This document shows, piece after piece, positions 3,470-61,685 of a DNA stretch of 64,000 nucleotides. Source of the DNA: Leptolyngbya sp. NIES-2104. Lineage in GTDB: Bacteria; Cyanobacteriota; Cyanobacteriia; Leptolyngbyales; Leptolyngbyaceae. Location of the stretch: assembly GCF_001485215.1 (NCBI RefSeq), contig NZ_BBWW01000004.1:1-64000 (forward strand), read 5' to 3'. The stretch's first letter is position 1. The number at the start of each line of letters is the position of its first letter. The notes under the pieces are model-generated. The model saw only the letters and a program-made list of their open reading frames with translations, made no database searches and had not been told where the DNA came from. The translations under genes were made by a program, and so were the position numbers.

Positions 3470-3711
3470 TGAAGACGATCGAAGCCAGAGTTAGCGTTGA
3501 CGAGGATCGCAAGGTGACGATTCAGTTGCCTGCTAGTATGCCAACTGGTGAATATGAGATTGTGTTGGTCTTAAATGACTGCTCTGCTCAAGATGCAAGG
3601 CAATCCTCAATTCAGGCGGCTCAAGATCTTTTGCGAAAGTATGTGCCTGCGGGACGCTCTCTTTCAGATGAATTGATTCAAGAACGCAGAGCGGAAGGGC
3701 TGAATGAGTGA
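3469..3711 (+). CDS. Probable antitoxin partner of the PIN toxin
   Basis: An 80-residue protein with a beta-rich N-terminus (ARVSVDEDRKVTIQLP) and a helical C-terminus. It lies directly before, and overlaps by 8 bases, a PIN-domain gene, which is the standard antitoxin-toxin order. ATG 3469 overlaps the hsdM TGA. An AGGAGAGG ribosome site at 3454-3461 supports this start. Function is inferred from size and position; the fold resembles DNA-binding antitoxin N-termini but no family was recognised with certainty. Confidence 0.6.
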   Translation: MKTIEARVSVDEDRKVTIQLPASMPTGEYEIVLVLNDCSAQDARQSSIQAAQDLLRKYVPAGRSLSDELIQERRAEGLNE

Positions 3712-4087
3712 AGTTGTGTTGGATGCTTCAGCCGTTTTAGCGCTGTTGAATCAAGAACCAGGTGGTGAGATAGTGGCTCAATTCATTGAGCAAGCCTCAA
3801 TCAGTGCTGTCAATTTCTCGAAGGTAGTGACCAAACTTGCAGAAGCGGGAACGCCAGAGGAGGCGATCGCGCAAATTCTAGATAATCTAAGCCTCGAAAT
3901 TATCTCCTTTGAGAAAACTCAGGCTGTTAGAGCCGGAATGTTAAGACCATTAACTCGATCGTTAGGGTTGTCTTTGGGAGATCGGGCTTGTTTGGCATTA
4001 GGTCTATATCTGAATCAGCCTATAATTACTACCGATCGCCAATGGGCTAGTCTCAATCTCGAAATTGAAATTCGAGTGATTCGATAA
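3704..4087 (+). CDS. vapC: PIN-domain ribonuclease toxin (VapC-like), locus 1
   Basis: A 127-residue PIN-domain protein, the usual VapC length. The acidic metal-binding set is visible: the Asp of VVLDASAVLAL near the N-terminus, an Asp in LGDRACLALG and an Asp in TTDRQW. VapC proteins cleave RNA, often tRNA, when free of antitoxin. The start overlaps the antitoxin gene by 8 bases. The pair sits between hsdM and hsdS, as does an unrelated-looking pair in RM locus 2. Confidence 0.85.
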   Translation: MSEVVLDASAVLALLNQEPGGEIVAQFIEQASISAVNFSKVVTKLAEAGTPEEAIAQILDNLSLEIISFEKTQAVRAGMLRPLTRSLGLSLGDRACLALGLYLNQPIITTDRQWASLNLEIEIRVIR

Positions 4088-4177
4088 TGTTAGGAAATAA
4101 GCTAAAAACCTGAATTGGAAAGCGCAATAGTTATAAAGAATCATTGATTTTAATATGGGTGCGATCGCGGAGAATTT

Positions 4178-5455
4178 ATGAGCGAGTGGAGCGTAAAAAC
4201 TATTGGGGAGCTTTGTGATCTTGGTAACGGTAAAGTTCAGACCGGACCTTTTGGCTCTCAACTTCACCAGTCAGATTATCAAGCGGAGGGCTACCCATTC
4301 GTAATGCCCAAAGACATTGTTAATGGAAAAATTGACGAGTCTTCTATTGCAAGAGTATCTATTAGCCACGTTGAGCGATTATCAAAACATAAATTATCAC
4401 TAGGAGATATCATTTATGGACGAAGAGGCGACATTGGAAGACAGGCATTAGTAAGGCAAGAAAATATTGGTTGGCTGTGTGGAAGTGGATGTTTAAGAAT
4501 TAGTTTAGGAGACGCGCCTATTGATTCTAGATTTCTTCACTTGTATCTAAAGCTGCCTGAAGTAATGGCATGGGTAGAGAATCAAGCAATCGGCGCAACT
4601 ATGCCGAATCTCAACACCAAAATTTTAAGAAGTGTTCCAGTTCGCTATCCTGCAAATGTCAATCAGCAGCAGCAAATTGTAGCGATCGTTTCTGCCTATG
4701 ATGATTCGATCGAGAATAACGATCGACGAATTGCCCTACTCGAAAAAATGGCAGAGGAAATCTACCGCGAATGGTTCGTCCGCCTGCGCTTTCCGGGGCA
4801 TGAGCAGGTCACGTTTCACAAGGGCATTCCTGAAGGTTGGCAAATTAAGCAATTACAGGAAGTCGCTCAAGTTAACGCAAAAAGTATTACGAAAAGCAAG
4901 GAATTTAAGACAATAAATTATGTGGATATAGCATCAGTAACAACTAATCGAATTAACCATGTTGAAGAAATTGATTTCAACAGTGCGCCAGGAAGAGCAA
5001 GGCGTATTGTAAAGCATGGTGATGTAATTTGGTCTACAGTGCGACCAGCGAACAGAGCTTATTGCTTGATACTAAATCCACCAGATAATCTCATTGTCTC
5101 AACGGGATTCGCTGTTGTTAGTCCAAAGAAAAACATACCTTATTCTTTTCTGCATCAGGCAGTAACCAGTAACGCTTTTGTTGAGCGAATAGCGAATGTT
5201 GCAAAAGGCTCTGCTTATCCAGCAGCCAGTAGAGAGGATTTTGAGAAGGCAGAAATTATCATTCCTGTGAAAGAACTATTGGCAACTTTTCATGCTTTAT
5301 GCGCTCCCATGCTCAAACAGAAAGATTTTTTAATCAGAAGAAATGAGAAATTGAAGCAAACTCGCGATCGTCTTCTCACCCGCCTAATCTCCGGCAAACT
5401 CTCCGTCGAAGACCTCGACATCCAATTTCCACCCAGCACGATCGACCTACAATGA
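4178..5455 (+). CDS. hsdS: Type I restriction-modification specificity subunit HsdS (locus 1)
   Basis: A 425-residue specificity subunit with two target-recognition domains (about 1-165 and 215-375), each followed by a conserved helical spacer. The first spacer includes QQQQIVAIVSAYDDSIENN and the second the ETRD-like KLKQTRDRLLTRLISGKL. It sets the DNA target of the HsdM and HsdR subunits. The gene starts 90 bases after the PIN toxin, in the same direction. The target sequence cannot be read from the protein. Confidence 0.93.
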   Translation: MSEWSVKTIGELCDLGNGKVQTGPFGSQLHQSDYQAEGYPFVMPKDIVNGKIDESSIARVSISHVERLSKHKLSLGDIIYGRRGDIGRQALVRQENIGWLCGSGCLRISLGDAPIDSRFLHLYLKLPEVMAWVENQAIGATMPNLNTKILRSVPVRYPANVNQQQQIVAIVSAYDDSIENNDRRIALLEKMAEEIYREWFVRLRFPGHEQVTFHKGIPEGWQIKQLQEVAQVNAKSITKSKEFKTINYVDIASVTTNRINHVEEIDFNSAPGRARRIVKHGDVIWSTVRPANRAYCLILNPPDNLIVSTGFAVVSPKKNIPYSFLHQAVTSNAFVERIANVAKGSAYPAASREDFEKAEIIIPVKELLATFHALCAPMLKQKDFLIRRNEKLKQTRDRLLTRLISGKLSVEDLDIQFPPSTIDLQ

Positions 5456-5479
5456 AAGCGACATTCAACGCCTGAGCTA

Positions 5480-5896
5480 ATGCCCGCAAAAGACCTTTAT
5501 CACGATGCTGTGAGAAATGCCTTAATCAAGGATGGTTGGGCAATCACAGCCGATCCTTACATTATCAAATACGAAGACGCAGAACTCTACGCCGATTTAG
5601 CAGCCGAAAAGCCGATCGCCGCAGAACGTCAAGGGCAGAAAATCGTCGTTGAGATCAAAAGCTTTGTCGGCAAATCGATGATGTACGACTTTCACGGCGC
5701 ATTGGGGCAATACATCGTTTATCGCGACCTTATCCAATTGACTGAGCCAGAATATATCCTTTATTTAGCGATCGATAATCTAGTTCATGAGGGATTCTTT
5801 CAAAGAAAATCAGTGCAAGCTGTCGCCCAGCAAAATCATCTGCTCCTAATCGTTGTAGACGTAGAAAAAGAGGAAATTCTGCAATGGATAAACTAA
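5480..5896 (+). CDS. xisH: XisH family protein
   Basis: A 138-residue protein with the XisH start (MPAKDLYHDAVRNALIKDGW) and the core KIVVEIKSF, which looks like the ExK part of a PD-(D/E)XK nuclease fold. XisH was named as a factor controlling excision of the Anabaena fdxN element. Most copies, including this one, occur far from any such element. The next gene, xisI, starts 13 bases before its stop. Here the pair lies inside a type I RM locus; a nuclease or TA-like role is possible but unproven. Confidence 0.9.
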   Translation: MPAKDLYHDAVRNALIKDGWAITADPYIIKYEDAELYADLAAEKPIAAERQGQKIVVEIKSFVGKSMMYDFHGALGQYIVYRDLIQLTEPEYILYLAIDNLVHEGFFQRKSVQAVAQQNHLLLIVVDVEKEEILQWIN

Positions 5897-6237
5897 CTCA
5901 CTATCGCCGCATCATTCAAACAACATTGAATCGATACTACGAAATGACGATTGCTCAAACTCATTTATCAACCAGCGATGAAGTCAGCGATCGACTCGCT
6001 TTCGACTCTGACCGAGATCAATATCTCTGGTTCCGCTTCGGTTGGAACGATAAAAAGCAAGTACAGCACATCATCATGTATCTCTGCATCAAAAACGGCA
6101 AAATTTGGGTCGAAGAAGACGCAACCAATCTATGTGTAGTCGATGATTTACTAGCGGCGGGCATTTCACAGGCTGATATTGTCTTAGGCTTCCACCACCC
6201 TAGCAAGCGAACCCTAACAGAGTTTGCTCACGCCTAA
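5884..6237 (+). CDS. xisI: XisI family protein (first copy)
   Basis: A 117-residue XisI protein, recognised by the N-terminal YRRIIQTTLNRYYE, the central GKIWVEEDATN and the C-terminal pattern ADIVLGFHHPSKR. It overlaps xisH, as in many cyanobacterial xisHI pairs, so the two products probably work together. No enzymatic residues are evident. Confidence 0.9.
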   Translation: MDKLTHYRRIIQTTLNRYYEMTIAQTHLSTSDEVSDRLAFDSDRDQYLWFRFGWNDKKQVQHIIMYLCIKNGKIWVEEDATNLCVVDDLLAAGISQADIVLGFHHPSKRTLTEFAHA

Positions 6238-6279
6238 TCTGCTCGGTTAATTGTCCACAGCGCACGAGGAACTAGAGCA

Positions 6280-6606
6280 ATGGATCGAGTAAACGAGTAC
6301 CGCCAAATCATTCAGAACTATTTAGCAGATTTTATTGCCCAATACGATCCCAACGCCCAACTTATTTTCGATCAAGAGCGCGATCGCTATCTCGTCATGC
6401 ACAACGAATGGCGCAATCACAACCGCATCTATGGCTGTGCCATCCAGTTAGATATCATCGACGGTCAAATTTGGATACAGCAAAATAACACCGAAATTTA
6501 CGTCGATCGAGAACTGATCGCCGAAGGAGTCACCCCCCAAGACATTATTTTCGGCTTCCGCTCCCCCAGCATCCGAAAAATGATTGCCGCCGCCAACCGT
6601 CAATAG
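6280..6606 (+). CDS. xisI: XisI family protein (second copy)
   Basis: A 108-residue second XisI, with YRQIIQNYL, GQIWIQQNNTE and DIIFGFRSPSIRK matching the same three positions as the preceding copy. It follows the first xisI by 42 bases and has no XisH of its own. The two XisI sequences differ too much for a recent duplication. It could compete with the first XisI for the single XisH partner; that is speculation. Confidence 0.87.
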   Translation: MDRVNEYRQIIQNYLADFIAQYDPNAQLIFDQERDRYLVMHNEWRNHNRIYGCAIQLDIIDGQIWIQQNNTEIYVDRELIAEGVTPQDIIFGFRSPSIRKMIAAANRQ

Positions 6607-6678
6607 TGTTGATTGCTCCCGTTCTTGGTAAAACTAGAGACATCGGTTTAAGCCTGTGCGGAGGCGGTCACATTTCCC

Positions 6679-9600
6679 ATGCCAAACTTTATTTCTGAAG
6701 ATGACATCGAGCAAGCGATTCTACGAAAGCTCAATCAAACCTACGGGTTTCAGTTGCTCAACTGCTACACCGTCAATGCTGATGATCTCAACGATCGCTC
6801 CAACCGCACCGACAAACGCGATGTCATCTTCCACGATCGCCTCAAAGCCGCTGCTCTCCGCCTCAACCCAGCACTACCCGAAACCGCGATCGACAAAGCC
6901 TTGGCAATTCTAACTAATCAGCGCTCCACCCTTTCTACGATCGCAGCCAACCGCGAAATCGACGGACTGATCCGAAACGGCATTCAAATCGAATACGAAA
7001 ACGCTCAAGGTAGAACCGAAAACGGTCAAGTCCGCATCATCGATTTCAACGACCCCAGACCCAACGGTAACAATGAATTTCTTGCCGTCTCCCAACTGTG
7101 GATCAAAGGAGATCGCACCTACCGCCGCCCCGATATCCTGCTCTACATCAACGGCTTGCCCCTCGTCTTCATCGAACTAAAAAACTCCAACATCAAGCTT
7201 CAATCCGCCTACGACGACAACCTCACCAACTACAAGCGCGACATCCCCCAACTCTTCCACACCAACGCTTTCTGTATCCTCTCCAACGCGATCGAAACCA
7301 AAATCGGCAGCTTCACCGCCGCCTGGGAATATTTTTTTCACTGGCTCCGCCCCGAAGATGAAAAAGAAAAGCTCGATCGCGACCAGCTTAAAGAATCCGG
7401 CACCAGTTTAGAACGTGCGATCGACGGACTTTGCGCCCTACCGAAACTCCTCGACTACCTCGAAAACTTCATTCTCTTCCACAAAGAAACCCAAAAAATC
7501 ATTGCTCAAAACCACCAGTTCATTGGTGTAAATCGAGCAATCGAATCGTTCACAGATCGCAAAGCCAAAGAAGGAAAACTCGGCGTGTTCTGGCATACCC
7601 AGGGTTCCGGTAAAAGCTTTTCGATGATCTTCTACGCCCGTAAAATCTTCCGCAAACTCAAAGGCAACTTTACTTTTGTGGTCATCACTGATCGAGAAGA
7701 CCTCGATCGACAAATCTATCGAAATTTCCTCAACACCGAAACCGTCAAGAAAGACGAAGCGGCGCAACCCAACAACAGTAAAGAGATGCGACAGTTCCTT
7801 TCTCAGAACAAGCGAATCGTCTTTACCCTGATTCAAAAATTCCGTTATGAGAAGGGCAAACCGTACCCGAAATTAAGCGATCGTGATGACATCATCGTGA
7901 TTGTCGATGAAGCTCACCGTACCCAGTACAAATCTCTAGCAGAAAATATGCGGACAGGCTTGCCAAACGCGAACTATCTCGCTTTTACAGGCACTCCTCT
8001 ACTCGGCAAAGATCGTAAGACGAACGCCTGGTTTGGGGATTACGTCAGCGAATACAACTTTTCTCAATCAATGGATGACGGCGCAACGGTGCCCCTGTTC
8101 TACCAAAAGCGCGTTCCAGAAGTGCTGATTCAGAACGAAGATTTGAGTGAGGAATTTTATCAAATCCTCGAAGAAGAGAACCTCGACGACGCACAGCAAG
8201 CAAGTTTAGAAAGAAAATTTGCCCGTGAAGTCGAAGTGATCAAACGCGACGATCGCTTAGATACGATCGCCAAAGACATCGTTTACCACTTCCCCCGCCG
8301 AGGCTACTTAGGTAAAGGGATGATTGTTTCCGTCGATAAATTCACCGCTGTGAAAATGTACGACAAGGTACAGCATCACTGGAAAGCAGAAATCAAGAAC
8401 TTAGTCGGACGCATCAAACGATCATCAAACGACATTGAAAAAGCCCGCCTCAAAAAGATTCTGGACTTCATGCGAGAGACCGATATGGCAGTCGTGATCA
8501 GCCAGGAAAATAGCGAAGCCGAAACCGACAAGTTCGCCAAACAAGGACTCGACATCAAGCCACACCGCGATCGCCTCAATTCCGTCGATAAAGAGGGACA
8601 CGACATCGAGTATCAGTTCAAAGATGCTGACCATCCGCTGCAATTAGTCTTCGTCTGTTCCATGTGGTTAACAGGCTTCGATGTCCCCAGCCTGTCTACG
8701 CTTTACCTCGACAAGCCGATGAAAGACCATACTCTGATGCAAACGATCGCTCGCGCCAACCGCGTCAGTTCTCATTCAATCAACCACGTCACCAAAGCAA
8801 ACGGCGAAATCATTGATTACTACAACGTCTTTCGCAACATGAAACAGGCACTCGCGGCTTATGCGCTAGGCGGTGGTGAAAATCTAACCGATGACGATAC
8901 TGATTCCCCGATTCAGAAGAAAGCAAACCTGTTTACCCTGCTCGATGATGCGATCGCCCAAGGACTGGCATTTTGCCAACAACACAACATCAATTTAGAA
9001 AGCATCCTGGCGATTCAAGACACGTTTAGAAATCTAGAGCAGTTCAATCAGTTTGCCGATACCCTCTTACAAAAAGACGAATGGCGCAAAGCTTTTGCGG
9101 TCTACGAAAACACCATCACCTCGCTCTACGAAGCCTGTAAGCCCGAAATCTTAAGCGAACCACGCCCGATCGTCTTCGTTTTCCAATACTTACGAGGCGT
9201 GATCGATAGCATTATCGGACGCGCCAACATCGACTCAGTGAGCCTCAAGATCGCAGAACTGCTCGATGAGAGCGTTGTTGCAGACAACCAAGGCTTAAAG
9301 CAGAAAGAGTACGGGGCAGAATATAAAATCGTTCAAGCAGGCAAAGTTTGGGACTTGAGCCAAATGAACTTTGACAAACTCAAAACAGAATTTCAAGCTG
9401 CACTCTACAAGAACATTGAAATTGCTGATTTGCGTAGCTTTCTCGAAGACAAGCTGAATCAGATGCTTCAACAGAACACGACCCGGACAGACTTCGCCCA
9501 ACGATTGCAAGCCATCATTGATCGCTACAACGCGGGCGGCTCCTCGACTGAGAACTACTACGAGGCATTAGTCGATTTTGCCGAGAACCTCAAGCAAGAA

Positions 9601-9933
9601 ACCGAGCGCCACGTTCGGGAAGGTTTAACCGAAGACGAGCTAGAACTGTTCGACCTGCTCAAAAAAGACAAAATGACCGCCGATGAAACTCAAAAAGTCA
9701 GACTAGCTGCAAAATCTCTTTTGAGCCGATTAATTGCAAATCAACCCAAAGTTTTAGTGCAGGACTGGTATAAAGACGATCAGAGTCAGCGCCGAGTGAA
9801 ATCGACGGTTGAAGAAGTTTTAGACGATAATCTACCTGGCACTTACGATCGTCTTCTATTTAAGGAGAAGTGCGATCGTGTTTTTGATCTCATTTATAGC
9901 CAAGCAAGCAAAGGGCAAAAATGGGCAGTCTAA
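6679..9933 (+). CDS. hsdR: Type I restriction endonuclease subunit HsdR (locus 1)
   Basis: A 1084-residue motor and nuclease subunit. The N-terminal PD-(D/E)XK nuclease site has Asp152 in RRPDILL and FIELK at 164-168. The translocase has Walker A GSGKS (309-313), a DEAH box (410-413), TGTP and the helicase motif with TIARANRVSS. A helical C-terminal region binds the methylase core in this family. It is intact and close to the usual length. It cleaves DNA unmodified by the locus 1 methylase and lies in the same direction as hsdM and hsdS. Confidence 0.95.
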   Translation: MPNFISEDDIEQAILRKLNQTYGFQLLNCYTVNADDLNDRSNRTDKRDVIFHDRLKAAALRLNPALPETAIDKALAILTNQRSTLSTIAANREIDGLIRNGIQIEYENAQGRTENGQVRIIDFNDPRPNGNNEFLAVSQLWIKGDRTYRRPDILLYINGLPLVFIELKNSNIKLQSAYDDNLTNYKRDIPQLFHTNAFCILSNAIETKIGSFTAAWEYFFHWLRPEDEKEKLDRDQLKESGTSLERAIDGLCALPKLLDYLENFILFHKETQKIIAQNHQFIGVNRAIESFTDRKAKEGKLGVFWHTQGSGKSFSMIFYARKIFRKLKGNFTFVVITDREDLDRQIYRNFLNTETVKKDEAAQPNNSKEMRQFLSQNKRIVFTLIQKFRYEKGKPYPKLSDRDDIIVIVDEAHRTQYKSLAENMRTGLPNANYLAFTGTPLLGKDRKTNAWFGDYVSEYNFSQSMDDGATVPLFYQKRVPEVLIQNEDLSEEFYQILEEENLDDAQQASLERKFAREVEVIKRDDRLDTIAKDIVYHFPRRGYLGKGMIVSVDKFTAVKMYDKVQHHWKAEIKNLVGRIKRSSNDIEKARLKKILDFMRETDMAVVISQENSEAETDKFAKQGLDIKPHRDRLNSVDKEGHDIEYQFKDADHPLQLVFVCSMWLTGFDVPSLSTLYLDKPMKDHTLMQTIARANRVSSHSINHVTKANGEIIDYYNVFRNMKQALAAYALGGGENLTDDDTDSPIQKKANLFTLLDDAIAQGLAFCQQHNINLESILAIQDTFRNLEQFNQFADTLLQKDEWRKAFAVYENTITSLYEACKPEILSEPRPIVFVFQYLRGVIDSIIGRANIDSVSLKIAELLDESVVADNQGLKQKEYGAEYKIVQAGKVWDLSQMNFDKLKTEFQAALYKNIEIADLRSFLEDKLNQMLQQNTTRTDFAQRLQAIIDRYNAGGSSTENYYEALVDFAENLKQETERHVREGLTEDELELFDLLKKDKMTADETQKVRLAAKSLLSRLIANQPKVLVQDWYKDDQSQRRVKSTVEEVLDDNLPGTYDRLLFKEKCDRVFDLIYSQASKGQKWAV

Positions 9934-18023: not shown

Positions 18024-18418
18024 AAGGTTTTTAGCAATTTAGTGTCGGGTTACTTGTCTGAATGGTCAACAGGTAGAAAGTTATGTAAATCGATAGAGCG
18101 GAAAGCTGATGCTGTAAGGGTTTGAGCGTGTCGGATGACAATGGCAGCATCATGTCGATCGTCTTTCTCTAGGCTCCCTGCCTGGGCGTTGGGTGTGAAC
18201 TGCGTAGCCCCAGAGGGCGTAGCACCTATTTGCCAAATTACTAGGGCGATCTGTCAGAAAACTGTTGCCAGACCGCTGACAGATCCCTCTTCTATGCTGA
18301 TTGTGTGCGGTGCCAAAACACGCCCTTTTACTCCCAGAACCTTTGCCTTGCAGCAAGACTCGTAATTGTGAGTGCCCAACGCCGCCAATGCACGCCAACC
18401 ACACACAAGCCAACACCT
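18024..18418. other. Divergent intergenic region, candidate oriT
   Basis: This lies between the divergent mobilisation operon and the actin-like gene. It contains a perfect 10-bp inverted repeat, GATCTGTCAG at 18248-18257 and CTGACAGATC at 18276-18285, with an 18-base spacer, and several G/C-rich stretches. The relaxase operon reads away from it, as expected for oriT. No known nic sequence was recognised. Part may instead be the operator of the actin-like segregation operon. Confidence 0.4.
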
Positions 18419-19534
18419 ATGAGCAATTATCAGATTTTCGTTGATTTAGGTTTATCAGGAACAAAGGCAGGATTTATCGATAGAAGCATCTGCCATAGCT
18501 ATCTGTGTCCGCCCAAAGTGGCAGATTTGACACCTTCTGAACTGCAAATTCTTCGTGATCAAGGCGACCAATATGGAGGCGGTTTGGAGTCCGGTGCATA
18601 TCTTCAGCTTGGCGAATCGGCTTACGCGCTCGCCTCGGACGCAGAAGGACGACCAAACAAAACGACTGCCATGCTACGAAAAAGTGCTTTAGCGAACCTA
18701 CGGATTTTGGGAGCGATCGGAGAAATGGCATACCGCTTCAAAACGACTCATTTAGCGATCGACGTTGGCGTAGCGCTACCCTTTGATGAATATCTGTGTG
18801 ACCAAGCCGCGCTGATAGAAATTCTTTCTAAAACTAAATCGTTCGTCTATCGAGGACAACAGATCACCTTAGAGATTCAGACGATGAAGGTGCTACCAGA
18901 AGGCGCAGGATTAGTTCAGTGGCGCAAAATGCAGGCTGCTCAGAACAATGAGCCAGCCGATCAAACCTATGTAGTTGTCATGATTGGATACAGAGACCTA
19001 ACGTTTTTGCTGTTTCGAGAAGGCAAACCTCCAACTGGAGAGCCAAGCGGCTCAGTCAAGTTTGGTTATCTAGAATTCCTTCAGTCGATCGCGCGAGGAA
19101 TGTGCAAGCCAGAAAATCCATTTCTCTACGATGCACTTCTACGAAACGCAGATACAGTCGCATTTCCAGATCAGCCTGGTAAAGTCTTCTCACTCAAAGA
19201 GCGACGACAAAAATCGGAAGATTTCTATTGGGAGCAGATTCGACATCATTTAAGCGACAAATTCGCAGCGCTCAATTTTCCTCGATATGAAGTGTTGATT
19301 GGAGGTGGAACTGCATTGACGTTGTTACGTCCGCATCTGGCAAACTACCTGGAAACGCTACCGGGAGCAACGGTGAATTGGTTGCCAGCGCTGACGCATG
19401 AAATTACCAGAGTTTTCAAAGATATTCAGTTAGAAGCAGACCAGATAAGGTTTGGGGACTGCTATGGTGGCGCAAAGTGGTTAGCGGTTCGGAGCGCTCA
19501 TTCAGCTAAGAAAGCGGTGGGGAGAGTTTCATGA
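18419..19534 (+). CDS. ParM/StbA-like actin-family ATPase (first)
   Basis: A 371-residue actin-fold ATPase of plasmid segregation type. The phosphate-1 loop is FVDLGLSGTKAGF near the N-terminus, the second phosphate loop is probably VVMIGYRDLTFLLF, and the adenosine motif is EVLIGGGTALTLL. The frame is open from 18305, but ATG 18419 starts just before the first strand, as in ParM proteins. The next gene overlaps by 4 bases. ParM proteins polymerise into filaments that push plasmid copies apart with a ParR adaptor. Confidence 0.82.
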   Translation: MSNYQIFVDLGLSGTKAGFIDRSICHSYLCPPKVADLTPSELQILRDQGDQYGGGLESGAYLQLGESAYALASDAEGRPNKTTAMLRKSALANLRILGAIGEMAYRFKTTHLAIDVGVALPFDEYLCDQAALIEILSKTKSFVYRGQQITLEIQTMKVLPEGAGLVQWRKMQAAQNNEPADQTYVVVMIGYRDLTFLLFREGKPPTGEPSGSVKFGYLEFLQSIARGMCKPENPFLYDALLRNADTVAFPDQPGKVFSLKERRQKSEDFYWEQIRHHLSDKFAALNFPRYEVLIGGGTALTLLRPHLANYLETLPGATVNWLPALTHEITRVFKDIQLEADQIRFGDCYGGAKWLAVRSAHSAKKAVGRVS

Positions 19535-19947
19535 GCAAACGAGAACGAATTACTCTGCGATTAGATGCAGAAGTAGACTCGATCGAAGGCTATCTGATTA
19601 AGTATTTGAAGCATGATCCAGCGATCACCTCAAGAGAAGCAATTCTACGAGCACTAAAAGCGTTCTATTTGCTCTGGGCACTGGAAAATTGTTATGACAA
19701 AGATAACCTCAAATTTCTCGCAAAAACTCTGCTAGAAGAATTGCATTTTCGGATGCTTCAAATTCATCAGCGCTTTCTAGAAGATGAAGCACCAATTACT
19801 TTTTTGCCTTTGACAGCAAATTCGTCTGCTGGAAGTTCTGAATTGCCTCGTTCTCAACCAGCAAGTACATTATCTAGATCTTCAGGAACTTTTTCAGAGC
19901 TAATTCAACAACTCAACTGCGAAGAACTGGAGTTAGACGAATTTTAA
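19531..19947 (+). CDS. ParR-like small partner of the actin-like ATPase
   Basis: A 138-residue protein whose ATG overlaps the stop of the actin-like gene. The start reads as a beta strand (RERITLRLDAEV) followed by helices, consistent with an RHH adaptor such as ParR. The C-terminal part is Ser-rich and polar and ends in an acidic tail, which in ParR contacts the filament. Sequence similarity to known ParR proteins was not established; the call rests on order, size and predicted fold. Confidence 0.6.
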   Translation: MSKRERITLRLDAEVDSIEGYLIKYLKHDPAITSREAILRALKAFYLLWALENCYDKDNLKFLAKTLLEELHFRMLQIHQRFLEDEAPITFLPLTANSSAGSSELPRSQPASTLSRSSGTFSELIQQLNCEELELDEF

Positions 19948-21852: not shown

Positions 21853-22317
21853 TTACTTACACCGATCGATGCGATAACTGGTTGGAGTTGTACGGAGTGA
21901 ACACCGGAGCCTCACTTTCACCGTTTTTCCAGCATTGTTACCGCTCCAGCGCAACACGACGATCACAGATTGAGCAGAGGACTGAGAGATGTTCAAAATC
22001 TCAGCTTGAATTGAGCCTGCTTTAAATTGCTCCCAGTAGCGCTGAAACTTCCCACGCTCAATGCCCCAAGCTGGCGATAGAAAAGCATAAGCCGTATCAA
22101 AATCATGTTCATCCAAGGCTTCAAAATATCGACTCACAAAGTCCTCGATCGACGGTCGAGCAGTGGACGCAATTGAGGGTAGTGGAGCCGGAGAGGGAGA
22201 CAATTCTGAAGTTTGATCGCGAGCAGATTCTTGATTGAAATGAATCAAGGCAGTACTGACTCCAATTAACGTAGCACAAAGTCCTGCTGTTACCAAAATC
22301 AAATGAGAAGAACGCAT
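21853..22317 (-). CDS. Secreted or membrane-anchored NTF2-like protein (cassette 1)
   Basis: A 154-residue protein with an N-terminal hydrophobic anchor (ILVTAGLCATLIGVSTALI), a Pro/Ser-rich linker and a C-terminal domain resembling the NTF2-like fold. In that domain FEALDEHDFDTAYAFLSPAW is followed by strands and two cysteines. It is close to the protein at 59195-59662: by hand alignment 37 of 49 residues match from the start of that domain. It is the best conserved member of the duplicated cassette. It lies 345 bases beyond the ATPase gene, with the repeat cluster between. Confidence 0.7.
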   Translation of the reverse strand: MRSSHLILVTAGLCATLIGVSTALIHFNQESARDQTSELSPSPAPLPSIASTARPSIEDFVSRYFEALDEHDFDTAYAFLSPAWGIERGKFQRYWEQFKAGSIQAEILNISQSSAQSVIVVLRWSGNNAGKTVKVRLRCSLRTTPTSYRIDRCK

Positions 22318-22576: not shown

Positions 22577-22662
22577 TACCCACTTACCCGCTTACCCGGT
22601 CTGCCCGCCTTATACCCACCCTGGGTAAAGTCACTTGAGCCACTTGGGTAAATGGGTAAGTG
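22577..22662. repeat. TACCC/GGGTA repeat cluster beside the ATPase stop codon
   Basis: TACCC starts at 22577, 22585 and 22593 with exact 8-base spacing and again at 22613. The complement GGGTA starts at 22623, 22646 and 22654, the last two 8 bases apart. CACTTACCC (22581-22589) and GGGTAAGTG (22654-22662) are inverted copies. The last copy abuts the stop codon of the ATPase. The rest of the 22318-22662 gap is AT-rich and shows no gene. Short 8-base repeats beside a translocase gene resemble the recognition repeats of Streptomyces TraB, by analogy only. Confidence 0.7.
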
Positions 22663-24240
22663 CTACAAGTCAGAATCAATTAAAGTTAGCAAATAGCGAA
22701 TTTCAGGACGAGAAAAACCATGCTTACGGCTCTGCCATTTCTCGTAAACATTTGAGGCATCGGCAATACCTGTTTGATCGAGCCACTCTGCTAATTCAGC
22801 CGCAACTAACATGATTTCTTTTCGAGATAATTCAGGCTTTTTTGTATTTGCCTTTGCGTCAGATTGAGCCGATTGTTTTGTGTCTTCAGACGACTTTATT
22901 TCGGCTACTCGACAATCATTTTTCGGTTCACAATCAACAACAAATGTACGAGCATCGCGATCGTATCCCGAATGATTTGGCAGTTCGGGCATCGGATACC
23001 ACCGCATTCCATCGCACCAAGCCCGTCGTACTGGAGAACGCCGCATCTCTGAAGTAATTGCACTGAGATCACGAGCAGAATCCGCAAACCACTTCGCCTG
23101 CAACACCGCTTCGATCTGCATCTCTTCGCCCAGCATCCCAATCATCAAAGGACGAAATCGAGATCGCGATGCCCCGTTCGTCTTCAAATCATCGTTGTGG
23201 GCAGATTGCCCCGCTTCCCAGCAGTACTTTTGCCGTGAATCTCCAGAAGAAACCAAGCTCTTTACGACATCCGCGTATCGCTTCGACTTCTCACGAATTA
23301 ATGTGCCTTCATTGCAAATAAGTAAACAGCATTCAGGACGACCATTAAAGTCATCGAGAATCGCATCAATCCAAGCTGAGATCGTCGAGTCACTGGAAAT
23401 TGCCAAATTCAATCGATAGAACGTGACCCGATCGAGTTCAGCATAGTAGCCCGTTTCTTTCGGGTCGTTCTTGCAGTCCATGACGATCACGGTGAACTTT
23501 GGGTAAATGGACAAGAACGATCGCAGCGCGTTCGAGAGCAGGATATCTTTACCACCACCGGACACAGAAATAATTAGTGATGTTCGTAAACGATCCCCAA
23601 CGAGGTAATTGATCGGACTGAAAGATGGTAATGGATTGGTCATTTCATTTGATGGAGTTGAATTTTGGGGAATTGCATCAGGTGCTTGCACTGCGATCGC
23701 TGGAACATCCACAGTGTTTTGCTCTGAATCGTTCGCTATCGCAGGTTCTGCACGTTGCTCAGATTGATTCTGTAAGTTTGTCGCGTAAGCTTTTTTGACT
23801 TCAGCGAACGTCGATGGCGTTAACCGCCCCTCGACCATTTCCACGAGTTCGATCGCGGCTCCAGTTAATCGCATTCCGTCGATATGCGCCGCAACGCATT
23901 GATCTACGATGAACTTTCGTCCTGTGAACCGGATAAGTTGGGCAATCTCTCGATGATTCAGCAAATGGCAGAAGTTGCCAGTCCGTGCGATGTACTCGGC
24001 TTGCTGACCATTTTTAGTAGCGCTTTTAATTGCATTGACAAGAATTGGAAGTGCGATCGCGCCTGCTGCTGGCAATCCACAGGGAATGACTAATGCGCCA
24101 AAAATGCCAACTGCTAAGAGAAATCGCCCAGTGGGTGCGTTGTTCACTCGCGAAGCTGCAAGCTCTTCAAAGTCGTCAATCTTATCTTCAATTTCGTCTG
24201 CGCTGAAGCGTCCTTCAGTCTCACCATATCGGCTTAGCAT
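22663..24240 (-). CDS. Membrane-anchored P-loop ATPase, translocase-like (cassette 1)
   Basis: A 525-residue protein. One or two hydrophobic segments (about 40-72) are followed by a linker and an ATPase domain. The Walker A region reads SGGGKD (227-232), with Asp where Ser/Thr is usual. A strand with VIVMDCKND follows (Asp255), and LLICNEG may be a second acidic strand. The C-terminus has a conserved helical domain with ELAEWLD and SRPEIRYLLT. The protein at 59937-61685 shares the GKD, the DxKN and the C-terminal domain. The layout resembles coupling proteins or FtsK/TraB translocases, but sequence identity to them was not shown. Confidence 0.65.
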   Translation of the reverse strand: MLSRYGETEGRFSADEIEDKIDDFEELAASRVNNAPTGRFLLAVGIFGALVIPCGLPAAGAIALPILVNAIKSATKNGQQAEYIARTGNFCHLLNHREIAQLIRFTGRKFIVDQCVAAHIDGMRLTGAAIELVEMVEGRLTPSTFAEVKKAYATNLQNQSEQRAEPAIANDSEQNTVDVPAIAVQAPDAIPQNSTPSNEMTNPLPSFSPINYLVGDRLRTSLIISVSGGGKDILLSNALRSFLSIYPKFTVIVMDCKNDPKETGYYAELDRVTFYRLNLAISSDSTISAWIDAILDDFNGRPECCLLICNEGTLIREKSKRYADVVKSLVSSGDSRQKYCWEAGQSAHNDDLKTNGASRSRFRPLMIGMLGEEMQIEAVLQAKWFADSARDLSAITSEMRRSPVRRAWCDGMRWYPMPELPNHSGYDRDARTFVVDCEPKNDCRVAEIKSSEDTKQSAQSDAKANTKKPELSRKEIMLVAAELAEWLDQTGIADASNVYEKWQSRKHGFSRPEIRYLLTLIDSDL

Positions 24241-24298: not shown

Positions 24299-25021
24299 TT
24301 AGTTAGCAGAATCAAACTGACGTGCCCGAATCCAGAAAATTACGATCACGAACGGGATCAGAAGCAGTTCAAAGCTAAACATCATCGTCAAAAGTTTTGT
24401 AAGATTGCCCCAGTCAATCCGGCTCGTGATGCCAGATGCGATCGCCACGAAGAAAACTTGCAAGTTGCGAGCAGGCGGATATTTGTGAATACCGATCGCA
24501 AAATCAAAGGCATAAGCAAACAGTGCTAACAATGCAGACCATCGGATGAAAAAGAAAGGAATGCCGTTCACACCTCGTGCAATCCGGCGAGACCGTCGAT
24601 CGCTAAAATCATCTGGGTTCACGCCGTTCTTTCGTGCATCTTTCAAAGCTCCGCGCTTGGCTTTGCGATCGAGCAAAATTAAAATCCACAAAACCTGAAA
24701 AATTTGTACTACGCTCCATACGAGAATCGCACCGACCGAAGCAATCACATTGTTCCAGGTGGTGAGCATCCAGCCGAGTACCGGAAGATTCTTTACCCAC
24801 GGTGCTTCAGCTCCGGCGCTGGCAAACAGGCTGTAGTATGGCTCAATATTCGTGAGGGCAACTCGAATCAGGGCAACGCCAAGCCCGATCGCTAAAACCC
24901 AGGCAATGAAGCCGAAAAAGGGATTATCGATCGCATCTCTTGCTTCACGCCCTGCCTGTCGTGCATAGGTTCTTGCGTTGTCTTTCCAAGACGGAGAATC
25001 AGACTGCGACTGTGTTTTCAT
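24299..25021 (-). CDS. Multi-pass membrane protein (cassette 1)
   Basis: A 240-residue protein with a charged N-terminal 35 residues and about four hydrophobic segments (for example FIAWVLAIGLGVALIRVAL, IASVGAILVWSVVQIFQVLW and FELLLIPFVIVIFWI). A positively charged stretch between segments two and three suggests a cytoplasmic loop. It has the same position, size and topology as the gene at 61743-62477. No enzymatic motif was seen. Lying 58 bases upstream of the ATPase gene in one operon, it is a candidate membrane partner of that ATPase. Confidence 0.7.
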   Translation of the reverse strand: MKTQSQSDSPSWKDNARTYARQAGREARDAIDNPFFGFIAWVLAIGLGVALIRVALTNIEPYYSLFASAGAEAPWVKNLPVLGWMLTTWNNVIASVGAILVWSVVQIFQVLWILILLDRKAKRGALKDARKNGVNPDDFSDRRSRRIARGVNGIPFFFIRWSALLALFAYAFDFAIGIHKYPPARNLQVFFVAIASGITSRIDWGNLTKLLTMMFSFELLLIPFVIVIFWIRARQFDSAN

Positions 25022-25032
25022 AGTAGGGACTC

Positions 25033-25581
25033 CTAACGAACAGGATTGGAATAGGTGCCACGCGCTCGCTGTTTCGCTGCGTTGATTAAGTCCTGATTGC
25101 CCGTATTAGCTAAGTCGCGCGCCACTGCTAATCCATTGAGTGCAGGATCAGGAACTAATTTCGCTGTATTGCCATAGACATCGCAGATTTCCATTCCAGC
25201 AGGCAGAAAAGCATTTCTGGGCATCTTGCGAATGTCGAACTTCTTACCGCGATACAGTTTTGCCAGCTCGCCCTTCAGCACAGGTTCACCATCAGTGATT
25301 GCGGTGTAATAGCCTTGCTGATTTAGAGAAAAGATGACCGTGCAGTGATTGCGGTATCGCTCTTCTGCAATCTCGCGCCGCTGCTCAGAAACCAATTGCT
25401 CGGTTTGCAGACGTTGATTGTCTTGTTGCTCTACTTTAAGCGACGCTCGAAGCTGGTTGCTGGAATCAATGAAGCTTTTGATGCTGCCTGAATTGAGGGT
25501 CAGAACAATCAGTGCGATCGCGCCACAAACACATTCCGCTTTATGTTCGTGCAGCAGTTCGTAAAGCTGGTGTTTTTTCAT
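25033..25581 (-). CDS. Bitopic membrane protein with coiled coil (cassette 1)
   Basis: About 182 residues from ATG 25581, preceded by AGGAGC at good spacing; the frame is open ten codons further. One membrane segment (CGAIALIVLTL) is followed by a coiled coil (about 45-85) and a globular C-terminal part with two cysteines (HCTVIF and EICDVYG). The gene at 62479-62964 has the same plan and also a CENTV / VICDR cysteine pair, so the two are positional counterparts. The soluble part probably lies outside the cytoplasm, where the cysteines could pair. Confidence 0.65.
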   Translation of the reverse strand: MKKHQLYELLHEHKAECVCGAIALIVLTLNSGSIKSFIDSSNQLRASLKVEQQDNQRLQTEQLVSEQRREIAEERYRNHCTVIFSLNQQGYYTAITDGEPVLKGELAKLYRGKKFDIRKMPRNAFLPAGMEICDVYGNTAKLVPDPALNGLAVARDLANTGNQDLINAAKQRARGTYSNPVR

Positions 25582-25616
25582 CGGATTGCTCCTGGGTGTG
25601 AGTTCCTGCAATCGAT

Positions 25617-25934
25617 CTACGCGGCGTAAACGCCGTCTTTCAATTGATTCGCGATCGCAATTTGCAAGCTCAGTGCATCATTTGGGGTGACGCGATCGAG
25701 AATGGCAAGCGCAACATAAAATTCATCGGACGCTCTCAAACCGCAGTCTTCAGAAGCTGCGTACAGTCCGTAATCTTCAGAGTCATCAGCTAGAAAGCCT
25801 GCCAAGGTTGCAAGTAGAGCAAGCTTATCGGCGGAAGACATTCGCTCTAATCGATCGCCATACTGTTCAGTCAATTTCACAAGGCAATCGGATGAAGCAT
25901 AGTAAGTCACTGAGTCGTACTTTGTTGCCATCAT
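25617..25934 (-). CDS. Small acidic protein (cassette 1)
   Basis: A 105-residue acidic, helical protein of unknown function. It starts close to ATKYDSVTYYASSD and contains YGDRLERMSSADKLALLATL. The gene at 63151-63498 has matching elements (SKYDSPHYYYKD, FGDYLERLSAIEKFDLIALL) and also a conserved AL.IAIANQL-like end, so they are homologues. A perfect AGGAGG lies 7 bases before the ATG. It sits between the RHH-like protein and the bitopic membrane protein in the operon. Confidence 0.7.
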   Translation of the reverse strand: MMATKYDSVTYYASSDCLVKLTEQYGDRLERMSSADKLALLATLAGFLADDSEDYGLYAASEDCGLRASDEFYVALAILDRVTPNDALSLQIAIANQLKDGVYAA

Positions 25935-25993: not shown

Positions 25994-26257
25994 TTAAAAC
26001 GAAAGCGGTTCGTCAAACTTGAACTGTTGATCTTGCACAGTGCGACTTTCAGAGGTTAGAGGTTGGCTGTTTTGATATGCCAATGGGTTTGGATCACCGT
26101 ATCGCTCTGGGTCTAGCTCCCAGGTAAGCAAGAGATGTTTTCCGTAGCGGCTGACCATCATGGCAATCGCATGAGAGGGTGAGGGACTTTTGGTTACTGC
26201 TTGAATTTGATCGACGATCGCACGAGTAGATTCGTCTAAAACAATGCGGCTGGTCAT
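25994..26257 (-). CDS. Small protein, RHH-like N-terminus (ParM operon)
   Basis: An 87-residue protein. The first 45 residues (SRIVLDESTRAIVDQIQAVT and following helix) fit a strand-helix-helix arrangement; the rest is polar. It starts 4 bases after the actin-like gene, the position of a ParR adaptor. Whether it or the divergent RHH protein at 27489 binds the centromere-like repeats is unclear. No family was recognised. Confidence 0.55.
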   Translation of the reverse strand: MTSRIVLDESTRAIVDQIQAVTKSPSPSHAIAMMVSRYGKHLLLTWELDPERYGDPNPLAYQNSQPLTSESRTVQDQQFKFDEPLSF

Positions 26258-26261
26258 AGCG

Positions 26262-27272
26262 TTATCCTGCTGTCATGCCGAGCAGAGAGATCAATTGTGG
26301 AAAGCGATCGATTTGTGAGTGTCGAGCGACTTTAAATCGCCCTTTGGTCGCTTCTTCTAAAGGTTCGGCTAAAGATGCAGAGCCGCCAATGACGAGGACT
26401 TCGCCGATTTCGCTCATCCATTGATTCCATCGGCTTCGTAATTCTGCTCGAATGTCGGAAAGCCATTGTTCGCGGCAAATCTCAAACTGTTTTTGAAACT
26501 GAAAGCCGCTGGTTCCGAGTGTAAAATCCTGCCGCTCGATGCCATCCATGATTTGGGACAAATCAGGACTGTTGGTAAGCTGGGGTGTGATTCGGGCGCT
26601 GATGCGACGAGCAAGATCATACGTGCCGGGGAGAATGGCATCGGCTTCACGAATGAGCGAACCGCCGACACTATAAAGTCTGCCGATTCCAGTTCCGCCA
26701 CCAAGATCTAGAACTCCGTTAAGTTGTCGTTTACTACGGTATAAATCGCGCTTCATGGCGAAGTTGTAAGCGGCTTGGGTTTCGTCGATCGGCTTCACTT
26801 CATGCACGACGGCTGTAATGCGTTGTCCGTTGCGGGTGAATTGGTGGGTGCCTTCAACTTTTTTCAACTCTGCAATATCTGCTTGATTGCGGCTGTTTGG
26901 AAGAGCAATGACGAGCCTTTGAACAACGACAGCGCTACTGCCGGGATGAGGTTCGATCGCGGCTAAAACCAATTTCTTCGCCAATTCGCATTTGTTGTCT
27001 TGAAAAACTGGTGTACCGCGCATATCGCGGGCGACTGCACCCAGGCAGAAGTGATTATCGCCAGCGCTGATGACGACGCTGTGATCGTCGGGGGTAGGAT
27101 CATCGAATCCTGGCTCAAACTGCTTGATGAATGCGGGGATGATGCGGGGACGGTTATCGATGTCGAGCCATTTGAGAGTGCGGTTGCCGCCATCGAAAAC
27201 GACGATCGCTCTCTTGAGCAGAACGCTTTCACTCAATGACCGTGCATTAGATGTAGCGAGATTGTTAAACAT
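26262..27272 (-). CDS. ParM-like actin-family ATPase (second), first gene of cassette 1
   Basis: A 336-residue actin-fold ATPase. The phosphate-1 loop is VVFDGGNRTLKW (about 28-40), phosphate-2 is GVLDLGGGTGIGRLY and the adenosine motif is VLVIGGSASL. It differs clearly from the actin-like protein at 18419. The genes that follow (RHH-like, acidic, bitopic, multi-pass, ATPase) are spaced 4 to 60 bases apart in the same direction, so this gene heads a six-gene operon. The palindrome and AACATG repeats at 27397-27491 lie 125 bases upstream. A filament-forming role in segregation is likely by family; why it is linked to membrane genes is open. Confidence 0.8.
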   Translation of the reverse strand: MFNNLATSNARSLSESVLLKRAIVVFDGGNRTLKWLDIDNRPRIIPAFIKQFEPGFDDPTPDDHSVVISAGDNHFCLGAVARDMRGTPVFQDNKCELAKKLVLAAIEPHPGSSAVVVQRLVIALPNSRNQADIAELKKVEGTHQFTRNGQRITAVVHEVKPIDETQAAYNFAMKRDLYRSKRQLNGVLDLGGGTGIGRLYSVGGSLIREADAILPGTYDLARRISARITPQLTNSPDLSQIMDGIERQDFTLGTSGFQFQKQFEICREQWLSDIRAELRSRWNQWMSEIGEVLVIGGSASLAEPLEEATKGRFKVARHSQIDRFPQLISLLGMTAG

Positions 27273-45571: not shown

Positions 45572-46192
45572 TCAAAGCTCCAACTCATAGATTTGAGCGA
45601 TCTCATCCGATTGAATTCCCAAATACGCCAACGTCTGACGCTGAGTGGCGTGTCCGAACGCTTCCATCAGCAAAGGAATTGCAGTGCCTCGCTCCGTTCG
45701 CTGCCAGTAGCCCCAAGTCTTCCGCAGCGTATGACTCCCATAGTTCCCCTTCAGTCCCACATCTTGGCACCAAGTTTTGACCATCGTACTCACAGTCGTC
45801 ACCGTTAAACACCCCCGCTGCCCCGTGAAGAGATTGTCTTCGTCCTGAAGCTGACTGTTCCCCAGCCAATGCTGAATCGCCGAGATCGCAGTGCCATTGA
45901 GCGTCACAGGACGATACTTGTGCGTTTTGCTCTGCTTCAGTTCTAAAACATCGCCGACATTAAGCGATCGCACCTGCCGCACCTTGATCGATAAGAGTTC
46001 GTTTGCCCGATACGCCGTGTTGATTCCCAACGTGAACAAACACAAATCACGCGGATGGTCTGCCAGCACCTTCTTGATTCGTTGGATCGCTTTTTTGTCT
46101 CGAATCGGTTCCACCTTGATCGTTGATCCTGGTGCGGGATGGTTGGGATTCTGCCCTTTCTGAAACGGCATACGGCTCTTTTCTCGACTCAC
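45572..46192 (-). CDS. Tyrosine recombinase/integrase (short)
   Basis: A 206-residue integrase consisting mostly of the catalytic domain. Visible catalytic residues are Arg in INTAYRANELL, Lys in QSKTHKYRPV, the SHTLRK His-Arg pair, His in FGHATQRQTL and Tyr in AYLGI. It lacks most of the usual N-terminal core-binding domain. The start is GTG 46192 or ATG 46171. CTCACTAACTT repeats lie at and upstream of its start. Short recombinases of this kind are common on cyanobacterial plasmids. Confidence 0.87.
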   Translation of the reverse strand: MSREKSRMPFQKGQNPNHPAPGSTIKVEPIRDKKAIQRIKKVLADHPRDLCLFTLGINTAYRANELLSIKVRQVRSLNVGDVLELKQSKTHKYRPVTLNGTAISAIQHWLGNSQLQDEDNLFTGQRGCLTVTTVSTMVKTWCQDVGLKGNYGSHTLRKTWGYWQRTERGTAIPLLMEAFGHATQRQTLAYLGIQSDEIAQIYELEL

Positions 46193-50800: not shown

Positions 50801-50975
50801 TAATTTGAGCGATCGCGTTTCGTAATCGATTTTCTAGAATGACTTCGCTGAGTTTTTGGCGCTCGGCGTTAGGTTCTCCGGGAGCAATGTCGTAGCCGCA
50901 GAGGTAGGAGTAGCCGAGGGTTTCAAAGTAAGAGAGGGCAGCGAGTTCTACATCGGTTTCAGTAAAGTTGCTCAT
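47844..50975 (-). CDS. hsdR: Type I restriction endonuclease subunit HsdR (locus 2)
   Basis: A 1043-residue HsdR. The nuclease site has RRPDLVVF (Asp143) and VIELK (155-159). The motor has Walker A GSGKS (301-305), [13 protein letters not shown] and [10 protein letters not shown]. It is intact. It is only moderately similar to the locus 1 HsdR, so the two loci are independent systems rather than a recent duplication. It is separated from its hsdS by the reverse transcriptase gene on the other strand. Confidence 0.95.
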
Positions 50976-52726: not shown

Positions 52727-52757
52727 AGATTCATAAGACTCAGTATTACCGTAAAAT

Positions 52758-54050: not shown

Positions 54051-54057
54051 CTACTTC

Positions 54058-59867: not shown

Positions 59868-59939
59868 TGACACGGGCGGCTGACCCGCGCTGACCCTGCC
59901 CGTGTCACGGCTTTTCTGCCTGCCGTGTCGCCCGTGTCA
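59868..59939. repeat. GTGTC/GACAC repeat cluster beside the ATPase stop codon (cassette 2)
   Basis: TGACACGGGC (59868-59877) has two exact inverted copies, GCCCGTGTCA, at 59898-59907 and 59930-59939. GTGTC starts at 59902, 59925 and 59934, and GCTGACCC at 59879 and 59889. The last copy contains the stop codon of the ATPase. The location matches the TACCC cluster of cassette 1, but the motif is different. Confidence 0.7.
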
Positions 59940-61685
59940 CTCTGCATCAAGCTGTTCAATTTGTGTTAGCAAATAACGAAATTCAGGACGACTCAATCCT
60001 TTACGACGAGCGTTGTAATTGCTGTAGCTTTGATCGAAAGATAATCCTTGATTCCGATCAAGCCATTCTCCTAATTCCGCGATCGCCAGCATCAATTCTG
60101 TTCGAGAAAGCGGCGGTTTAGAAACATTTCCTCGATCATTCACTTCCTTGCTTTGCGTGTTTTGCGTCAAGGGAGATAGATCGGCTGATTTTGATTCAGA
60201 CGTGGGTTGAGTCGTCTCGCTTTGGTGCTGCTCTTGCGGAAATGCTTCGCCTCGATCGAGTCCTGGATTTTCGAGTCTGGGCATTGGTTCCCATCGATTT
60301 AAGGCAGTGTGAAAATAGCCAATTCCCTTCAGAATCGAATGATTTTTGAGATGTTGGGTTGCGGTCGATCGAGAGCAGGCGGACTGAAAAGCGGATTGGT
60401 CGAGGAGCAGTTTGTTGCTGAACACATTCGTATCGCCTGCCATCTGACTGAGAAAGCCAAATTGAGTAGAGTTCGCGATCGCTAAAAAGTAAACGTTCGA
60501 GCGAGATTCTTTCTTAATGCCCAGCGCATCGAGATTCAACGCCTGAGCTGTACCGTACAAAAACTTGCGTTCTGAATTGCCTTGAATTGCTAGATATGCG
60601 ATCAAGAATGCAACTTCATCCCATTCCTTGATCATGCGCTTAACACCGTAAGCTGCCGCAATGCCGTTGATTTCAGAAAAGGCGATAAAGGCAGTTCCCG
60701 GACGGTCGATCGCGATTTGCAGGGCATCGACGATTGAGGCGTGGTAAGTGGCAGGGTCGTTCCGCATCGAAATTCGCACCACTTGATCGTAGAGATGACC
60801 GGACCACAGCGCCGATTCACTGGGGCTATTTTTGCCGTCAATGCCCAAGAAGTAAGCATTCTGATGGGATCGCTTCAGCGCCGACATCACGTTGTAGAGC
60901 GTAATGTCCTTGCCTGCTTCCGATTGCCCGAAGATGAATGTTGAATAGGGTTTAGCGATCATCAAAGACTGTAAACTTTTGGGAAGCCCAATCTCACACG
61001 GCAAGTTGTACGCCCGCTCTAACTCGGTCACAGGTGAGTGGATTGAATCTTGCTGCTGAGGCGAGAGCGGGACATCCACTACGTTTCGTCCTATCTGGGT
61101 ATCGATTCCGATCGTGTTCTGTAACGACAATAGTTCGGACGAATTGGGATGTGACGGTAGGGTTGGAATTGTCCTGGACTTCTCATCTAAGCGATGCCGA
61201 TGCCGCGCTTCTACCATTCCCGGCAGCATTTCGATTAATTGTGCGGCTGGAATGACATTGCCATCGTAAATAATTGCGTCTTGAGCGTAGTCGTAATTAC
61301 CAATGAACGACTCGTAGGAACTGAGAATTTCGTCTTCTGTCCCGGTTTGCGCTTTTTGCAAATAACCTAATAACTGGATCAAGCGACGATGCTTGTTCAG
61401 CAGCAAAATCTCCCGCTTGTCGTGCATTGTTAAGCGGTGAGATCGTGATTTCCAAAACGTGAATGCGCCCAATGCTGCCACAATCATGCCAACTGGATTG
61501 GTGGACACAAGAGCAAGCCCGATCGCAACCTGACTCGCCCCTGCCCAGTTACCGATCGTTCTAACGGTGTTTGTTTTTGTCGAAAACTCTGCGAGCAGGT
61601 CTACCAGCCGGACGGAGTTAGCTAAGTCAACGCCCCCGTCTACCACCAGCGATCGCAAAATTGATTTTGAGAAGTTTGCATCCAT
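59937..61685 (-). CDS. Membrane-anchored P-loop ATPase, translocase-like (cassette 2)
   Basis: A 582-residue counterpart of the protein at 22663. A hydrophobic N-terminal region (about 48-78) precedes a linker and the ATPase domain. Walker A is GQSEAGKD (253-260), again with Asp after Lys. The next strand has FLGIDGKN (Asp283) and the second acidic strand AFIAFSEING. The C-terminal domain (IAELGEWLD, LSRPEFRYLLTQIE) is the best conserved part between copies. It may couple ATP use to DNA movement across the membrane; this is inferred. Confidence 0.65.
   Translation of the reverse strand: MDANFSKSILRSLVVDGGVDLANSVRLVDLLAEFSTKTNTVRTIGNWAGASQVAIGLALVSTNPVGMIVAALGAFTFWKSRSHRLTMHDKREILLLNKHRRLIQLLGYLQKAQTGTEDEILSSYESFIGNYDYAQDAIIYDGNVIPAAQLIEMLPGMVEARHRHRLDEKSRTIPTLPSHPNSSELLSLQNTIGIDTQIGRNVVDVPLSPQQQDSIHSPVTELERAYNLPCEIGLPKSLQSLMIAKPYSTFIFGQSEAGKDITLYNVMSALKRSHQNAYFLGIDGKNSPSESALWSGHLYDQVVRISMRNDPATYHASIVDALQIAIDRPGTAFIAFSEINGIAAAYGVKRMIKEWDEVAFLIAYLAIQGNSERKFLYGTAQALNLDALGIKKESRSNVYFLAIANSTQFGFLSQMAGDTNVFSNKLLLDQSAFQSACSRSTATQHLKNHSILKGIGYFHTALNRWEPMPRLENPGLDRGEAFPQEQHQSETTQPTSESKSADLSPLTQNTQSKEVNDRGNVSKPPLSRTELMLAIAELGEWLDRNQGLSFDQSYSNYNARRKGLSRPEFRYLLTQIEQLDAE

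Follow-up and report, generated by a model that had tools for sequence, protein, structure and literature searches.

The translocase FtsK reads an 8-bp polar motif, KOPS, through its C-terminal winged-helix domain, and KOPS are spread along the chromosome. A closer parallel to the locus described here is offered by the Streptomyces plasmids pSVH1, pIJ101 and pWTY27, in which a membrane-anchored, FtsK-like motor (TraB or TraA) with a C-terminal DNA-binding domain is encoded near plasmid-specific repeats, the clt locus. An excerpt of PMC4170104 describes the assembly of TraB at 8-bp repeats (TRS), and such 8-bp TraB repeats are also cited in an excerpt of PMC12857230. Excerpts of PMC3583192 cite the reading of repeated 8-bp motifs by helix alpha3 of the TraB winged-helix domain, and describe the clt of pWTY27 as the traA end (16 bp) together with the 159 bp next to it, containing TGACACC repeats and inverted repeats that are bound by TraA. 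TcpA of pCW3 is described as FtsK-like in an excerpt of PMC12857230.

We analyzed a stretch of cyanobacterial DNA (the window), which comprises bases 1-64000 of the plasmid contig C4 (84,246 bases) and carries two cassettes that each end in an FtsK/TraB-like ATPase gene and a repeat array (Table 1). Two features of the Streptomyces systems recur here, an FtsK-like motor with an N-terminal membrane segment and element-specific repeats near its gene, and the C-terminal domain (CTD) of the motor may bind DNA too. In contrast to TraB/clt, the hosts are cyanobacteria, sequence similarity is very low, and the cassette includes an actin-like protein; moreover, the arrays have two orientations, are tied to the CTD and also occur inside the gene, and CTDs are exchanged between dissimilar motors. 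FtsK/KOPS is likewise a translocase with a C-terminal domain of the kind proposed here to read a short motif, whereas here there is one local array, in both orientations and different for each element. With TcpA and the VirD4/TrwB coupling proteins, the cassettes have in common an FtsK/HerA-type ATPase as found on conjugative elements, and relaxase genes are present on the window contig; however, the cassette motor profiles reach no more than 29% against local TrwB-type proteins, a low similarity. We know of no coupling protein that reads a repeat array. Our reading is that the array is a cis-acting address, read by the CTD, that would load the membrane-anchored motor on its own element (probability roughly 0.7). 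On this comparison the system probably works like TraB/clt, and we file it as an analogue rather than a proven member.

The initial annotation had reported seven TACCC/GGGTA units in both orientations, several at 8-base steps, directly behind the ATPase gene of cassette 1 (locus L001), and the positions bear this out. TACCC begins at 22577, 22585, 22593 and 22613 on the plus strand and GGGTA at 22623, 22646 and 22654; the steps 22577-22585-22593 and 22646-22654, three in all, measure 8 bp exactly. The array contains a 17-nt inverted repeat (arms 22581-22597 and 22646-22662, 88% complementary). Since the stop codon of the minus-strand ATPase frame is 22663-22665, the array abuts it; read on the coding strand, the core is TTACCC, three copies of which are followed by inverted copies. 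Seven TACCC in 86 bp did not arise in 500 dinucleotide shuffles of the intergenic segment 22318-22662, seven copies of any 5-mer arose in 6/500, and shuffling the 86 bp itself matched the array (any 5-mer) in 10/2000. TTACCCNNTTACCC, the paired unit, is present at two places in the 6,386,310-base genome (five contigs), both of them inside the array, and the 102-bp array stretch has a single match in the whole genome. By itself, the array is thus only moderately striking and suggestive; it is the comparison with homologues that makes the case decisive.

Table 1. Features of cassettes 1 and 2 (window coordinates)
Feature	Position	Strand	Basis
TACCC/GGGTA array, 7 units; proposed motor recognition/loading site	22577..22662	.	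Unit positions, shuffles, genome uniqueness
ATPase P0001, 525 aa: P-loop motor (Walker A ending GGGK231) and CTD behind a hydrophobic segment (~aa 40-58; hydropathy numbering counts 4 extra aa of the open frame)	22663..24240	-	Sequence, hydropathy
CTD, last 66 aa of P0001; proposed array reader, three predicted helices of HTH/winged-helix type	22666..22863	-	Model, covariation
Conserved cassette partner: membrane protein with four hydrophobic segments	24299..25021	-	77-93% identity in five relatives
Conserved cassette partner, one N-terminal hydrophobic segment and coiled-coil-like region	25033..25611	-	Coiled-coil label from sequence alone
105-aa cassette protein, without family match	25617..25934	-	Family scan
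87-aa RHH-like protein	25994..26257	-	Label from sequence alone; without family match
Actin-like (ParM-type) protein, first cassette gene	26262..27272	-	Weak NCBIfam ParM match; homologues in related cassettes
154-aa protein, N-terminal hydrophobic segment; next gene after array	21853..22317	-	51% homologue behind cassette 2
Cassette 2 array, motif TGACACGGGC / GCCCGTGTCA; abuts and overlaps its ATPase stop	59868..59940	.	
Cassette 2 ATPase, 582 aa: CTD type as in cassette 1, motor different	59937..61685	-	

We then considered the motor. P0001 matched no Pfam or NCBIfam family, PF01580 included, and a PDB sequence search with A1 gave only weak P-loop matches. In a profile-profile comparison, the pooled cassette ATPases (11 sequences) matched nine Streptomyces TraB proteins at 96.3% (E 1.5e-9, 125 columns), while controls from the window reached at most 21% against the TraB profile, all below the pooled cassette motor. 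The window's own motor group alone scored 87.5%, compared with 6% for TrwB-type proteins; among seven motor groups compared with TraB, only one reached 87% and three stayed below 3%. The similarity to TraB is a distant one. TrwB_AAD_bind was absent from P0001 (Pfam) and matched two of 19 relatives at E 0.1 (best 0.0022); the TrwB-type match of the genome lies on contig C2, not C4. One or two N-terminal hydrophobic segments were seen in 14 of 15 ATPases examined, P0001 having one.

The CTD, modeled alone, is predicted to form three helices (pLDDT 85). Its fold matches are weak (no Foldseek E below 1, Z at most 6.0) and mostly to winged-helix/HTH DNA-binding proteins; the full-length model, with a mean pLDDT of 44, was kept out of the fold search. 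An earlier description of the CTD as strongly conserved holds between cassettes 1 and 2 (46% over 67 aa) but not across homologues, where it is exchanged more readily than any other part of the ATPase.

Besides the motor and the array, the cassette contains an actin-like gene, two membrane-associated proteins and small proteins. The window genome has four matches to P0001, counting the protein itself; matches occur in 14/42 genomes of the order and profile matches in 47/388 genomes of the class. Close relatives are Leptolyngbya sp. Prado105 and Cyanobacteria bacterium FACHB-63; the viral contigs scanned contained no relatives. Eighteen named plasmid records also match, from Tolypothrix, Nostoc, Aulosira, Trichormus, Calothrix, Microchaete, Fischerella and Scytonema, all of them filamentous genera. 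Cassettes occur both on plasmids and in chromosome-size contigs, one of them 1.8 kb from an integrase gene. In the open-licence literature searched, we found no description of these cyanobacterial arrays.

We compared the ATPase 3' ends of 75 genome loci and 13 plasmid genes (88 loci), scoring an array wherever a 170-bp stretch had five or more copies of one 6-mer on either strand. An array abutted the ATPase stop in 34/88 loci, lay in the coding linker just before the CTD (120-430 bases before the stop) in 11, and was found 250-700 bases past the stop in four. Elsewhere in the loci, 8/1724 windows reached the score; because several windows were tried per locus, individual arrays, for instance those of L078 and L115, may have arisen by chance. 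The initial annotation had looked to homologous cassettes for repeats at this place: the close homologues do bear them, with other motifs, yet 39 of the 88 wider-family loci have none by the fixed score, including most of a Nostoc-type subfamily in which the motor is present. Five of these 39 score four at the stop, among them L003 (cassette 2) and L005, where repeats are plain by eye. Applied to nine Streptomyces plasmids, the same score revealed no clear array at the 3' end of traB; their background is GC-rich, and this control is uninformative.

A few loci depart from this arrangement. In L071 and L092 the ATPase and the array are separated by an extra gene of ~147 aa, 0-420 bases after the ATPase stop, which looks similar by eye in both loci. 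L043 has no array at the ATPase, and AGGCAG repeats in both orientations lie ~3.2 kb before its ATPase stop. Just past the array on contig C5 (L002, 300-470) is a fragment like the end of a tyrosine integrase, possibly a recombination scar.

Almost every lineage has its own motif, and the four cassettes of the window genome have four. The motifs include, beside TTACCC in the window, TGACCC (C5 and L012), TGACACG (cassette 2 and L011), TGCCACG (L007, L008), AAGTGTC (L004), CTGTATC (L014, L023), CTGTAGCA and TGTAGC (L020, L066), TAGGGACA (L015, L067), CGTAAC (L013, L016), CGTAGGAC (L019) and CAGGAC (L006), and further motifs exist. The layout is common to them: units in one orientation near the stop, often in 8-9 bp steps, are followed, frequently after a gap of ~22 bp, by units in the opposite orientation. 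At most one orientation switch was seen in 25/35 arrays, as against an expected 2.3 and a maximum of nine in 20000 random sets. In L055 and L069 the array is inside the coding linker; the unit positions are almost identical, and so is the switch. Units were 83% and spacers 58% identical (pooled), with the same direction in 11/11 pairs, a difference somewhat inflated because the aligner favors repeats. The DNA past the array is not conserved (39% identity over eight pairs).

Next, we asked which part of the ATPase the motif follows. Across 34 non-replicate loci, motif similarity tracked the CTD with the rest of the ATPase removed (partial r 0.49, 0/5000 permutations); with the CTD removed, it did not track the rest (partial r -0.01, 2509/5000). 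Here the CTD was the last 85 aa and the rest was all but the last 100 aa; only DNA after the stop, and only arrays outside the ATPase coding sequence, were used. We left out 11 loci with linker or non-abutting arrays (L049, L052, L053, L055, L062, L069, L073, L080, L102, L103 and L105), together with L078 and L017 (lacking an assigned motor or CTD segment), proteins shorter than 330 aa (L012, L089 and others), loci below the array threshold and the replicates L084, L085 and L094; L003, L005 and L065 were retained at four units instead of five.

Individual pairs show the same pattern. L015 and L067 both have TAGGGACA, and across 14.2 and 17.0 kb only the CTD is common to them (60% over 80 aa, at E 1e-4 or better). 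Conversely, L001 and L006 have in common the actin-like (40%), RHH-like (38%), coiled-coil (78%) and membrane (80%) proteins and the motor (81%) but not the CTD, and their motifs differ (TTACCC versus CAGGAC); L013 and L019 repeat this, with proteins in common, CTDs not, and different motifs. L013 and L016, which have one motif, are 36% identical in the motor segment. Among pairs with similar CTDs, only 9/27 reached a motif cosine of at least 0.3; similar CTDs often go with clearly different motifs, so the motif changes fast. Among pairs alike in neither the CTD nor the rest, 9/467 reached a cosine of 0.3. We consider it highly likely, from these sequence comparisons, that the CTD recognizes the array, and the array is very probably an address label read by the tail domain of the adjacent motor. 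The initial annotation had proposed such a TraB/clt-like recognition locus, a proposal strengthened by the tracking of the CTD by the motif and by a motor profile whose match to Streptomyces TraB exceeds that of every control. We also considered the RHH-like protein as the reader and rejected it, as L001 and L006 have it in common with different arrays, and L015 and L067 have like motifs but no such protein in common. A host factor is an unlikely reader given four motifs for the four cassettes in one genome.

We reasoned that array and CTD, being neighbors, would yield part of this correlation by joint inheritance alone. Taken to its limit, this would mean that the arrays are neutral or unrelated to the CTD and hitch-hike with the neighboring gene end in recombination. 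Exchanges would indeed carry both, and the DNA beyond the array is poorly kept, as noted above. Against such passive linkage, units are better kept than spacers in all 11 pairs, a change of motif affects every unit of an array (TTACCC, TGACCC, TGACACG), unit order and spacing are retained from one motif to another, and some arrays are found on the opposite side of the CTD; these features argue for recognition, and we judge linkage alone very improbable. An alternative in which the array is an iteron replication origin or the next gene's operator, with a replication protein or repressor as its ligand, would account for the iteron-like geometry and for the AT-rich, -10-like and ribosome-binding-site-like stretch seen by eye between many arrays and the next gene. 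It fits poorly with cassettes in chromosome-size contigs, with arrays within coding DNA in one subfamily and with a motif that tracks the motor CTD while other regulators are not common to the loci, and we regard this explanation as improbable. The cassette proteins scanned contained no Rep domain.

The main rival is segregation. The array could be the centromere of a type II (ParM-like) partition system, bound by the actin-like protein with an RHH adaptor or anchored at the membrane through the ATPase CTD. In the genomes searched, most cassettes have an actin-like gene ~2.6-4.8 kb upstream, and in cassette 1 an RHH-like gene stands beside it. Still, the plasmid already encodes ParA/ParB, the motif is alike in L015 and L067 where only the CTD is common, and it differs in L001 and L006, which have both the actin-like and the RHH-like protein in common; in the locus pairs compared, no motif was tied to either protein. 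A partition centromere is thus rather unlikely, while segregation through the CTD is possible.

We favor the address reading, in which the CTD would bind several units, in one orientation and then the other, so that the motor ring would be assembled or oriented. The ring would be loaded on the DNA of its own element and no other, and the element would be pumped at the membrane, most likely for cell-to-cell transfer and possibly for segregation. CTD and array would be exchanged between motors as one module by recombination. Because reader and target must match, selection would hold the array beside the CTD-coding DNA, either 3' of the stop or in the linker.

The cassette make-up, the plasmid or chromosome setting and the occurrence of relaxases point to a loading site for a DNA-moving motor, with transfer likelier than segregation, although the actin-like gene fits segregation too; we give a transfer role an even chance. 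Relaxase genes are on the cassette contig in some cases (C4, C5 and G030:C213), and their presence on C4 makes a relaxase-dependent route possible. G006 and G027 contained no member of the two relaxase families for which the search gave answers; a Mob_Pre search gave no match, in the controls as in the sample.

If the address reading is correct, the TraB/clt principle extends from actinomycetes to cyanobacteria as a modular, exchangeable address code, and dozens of natural CTD-target pairs would make DNA-motor specificity readable from sequence and testable by swaps. The coexistence of several such elements in one cell would also be explained, and the movement of cyanobacterial plasmids that lack an obvious transfer system of their own would become easier to approach. 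More tentatively, cyanobacterial mobile elements may carry a DNA-moving system that has so far gone undescribed, built from an actin-like protein, membrane partners and an FtsK/TraB-like motor, in which self-recognition is a plug-in, exchangeable CTD with its two-orientation array. The many pairs, up to four per genome, might then form a code by which elements are prevented from moving one another, and the system might move double-stranded DNA between filament neighbors, as TraB does in mycelia.

Several further features were noted. Behind many arrays (L003, L004, L007, L008, L011, L012, L014 and L020-L023) we saw by eye a stretch like TCTACRATC ... AAACTATYAGGAG, perhaps the promoter and ribosome-binding site of the next gene. 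Apart from cassette 1, another actin-like gene (ALP_N), accompanied by a small RHH-like gene, is found at 18305-19947 of the window, and a short tyrosine recombinase at 45620-46087. A MOBP-type relaxase (G000:C4:73301-73708) lies past the window end, ~12 kb from cassette 2. The plasmid contig also carries two type I restriction-modification systems (1355-9933 and 47844-56359); an XisH gene (5480-5896) is inside the first, and a reverse transcriptase gene (RVT_1, 51449-52726) lies on the opposite strand between HsdR and HsdS genes of a type I system.
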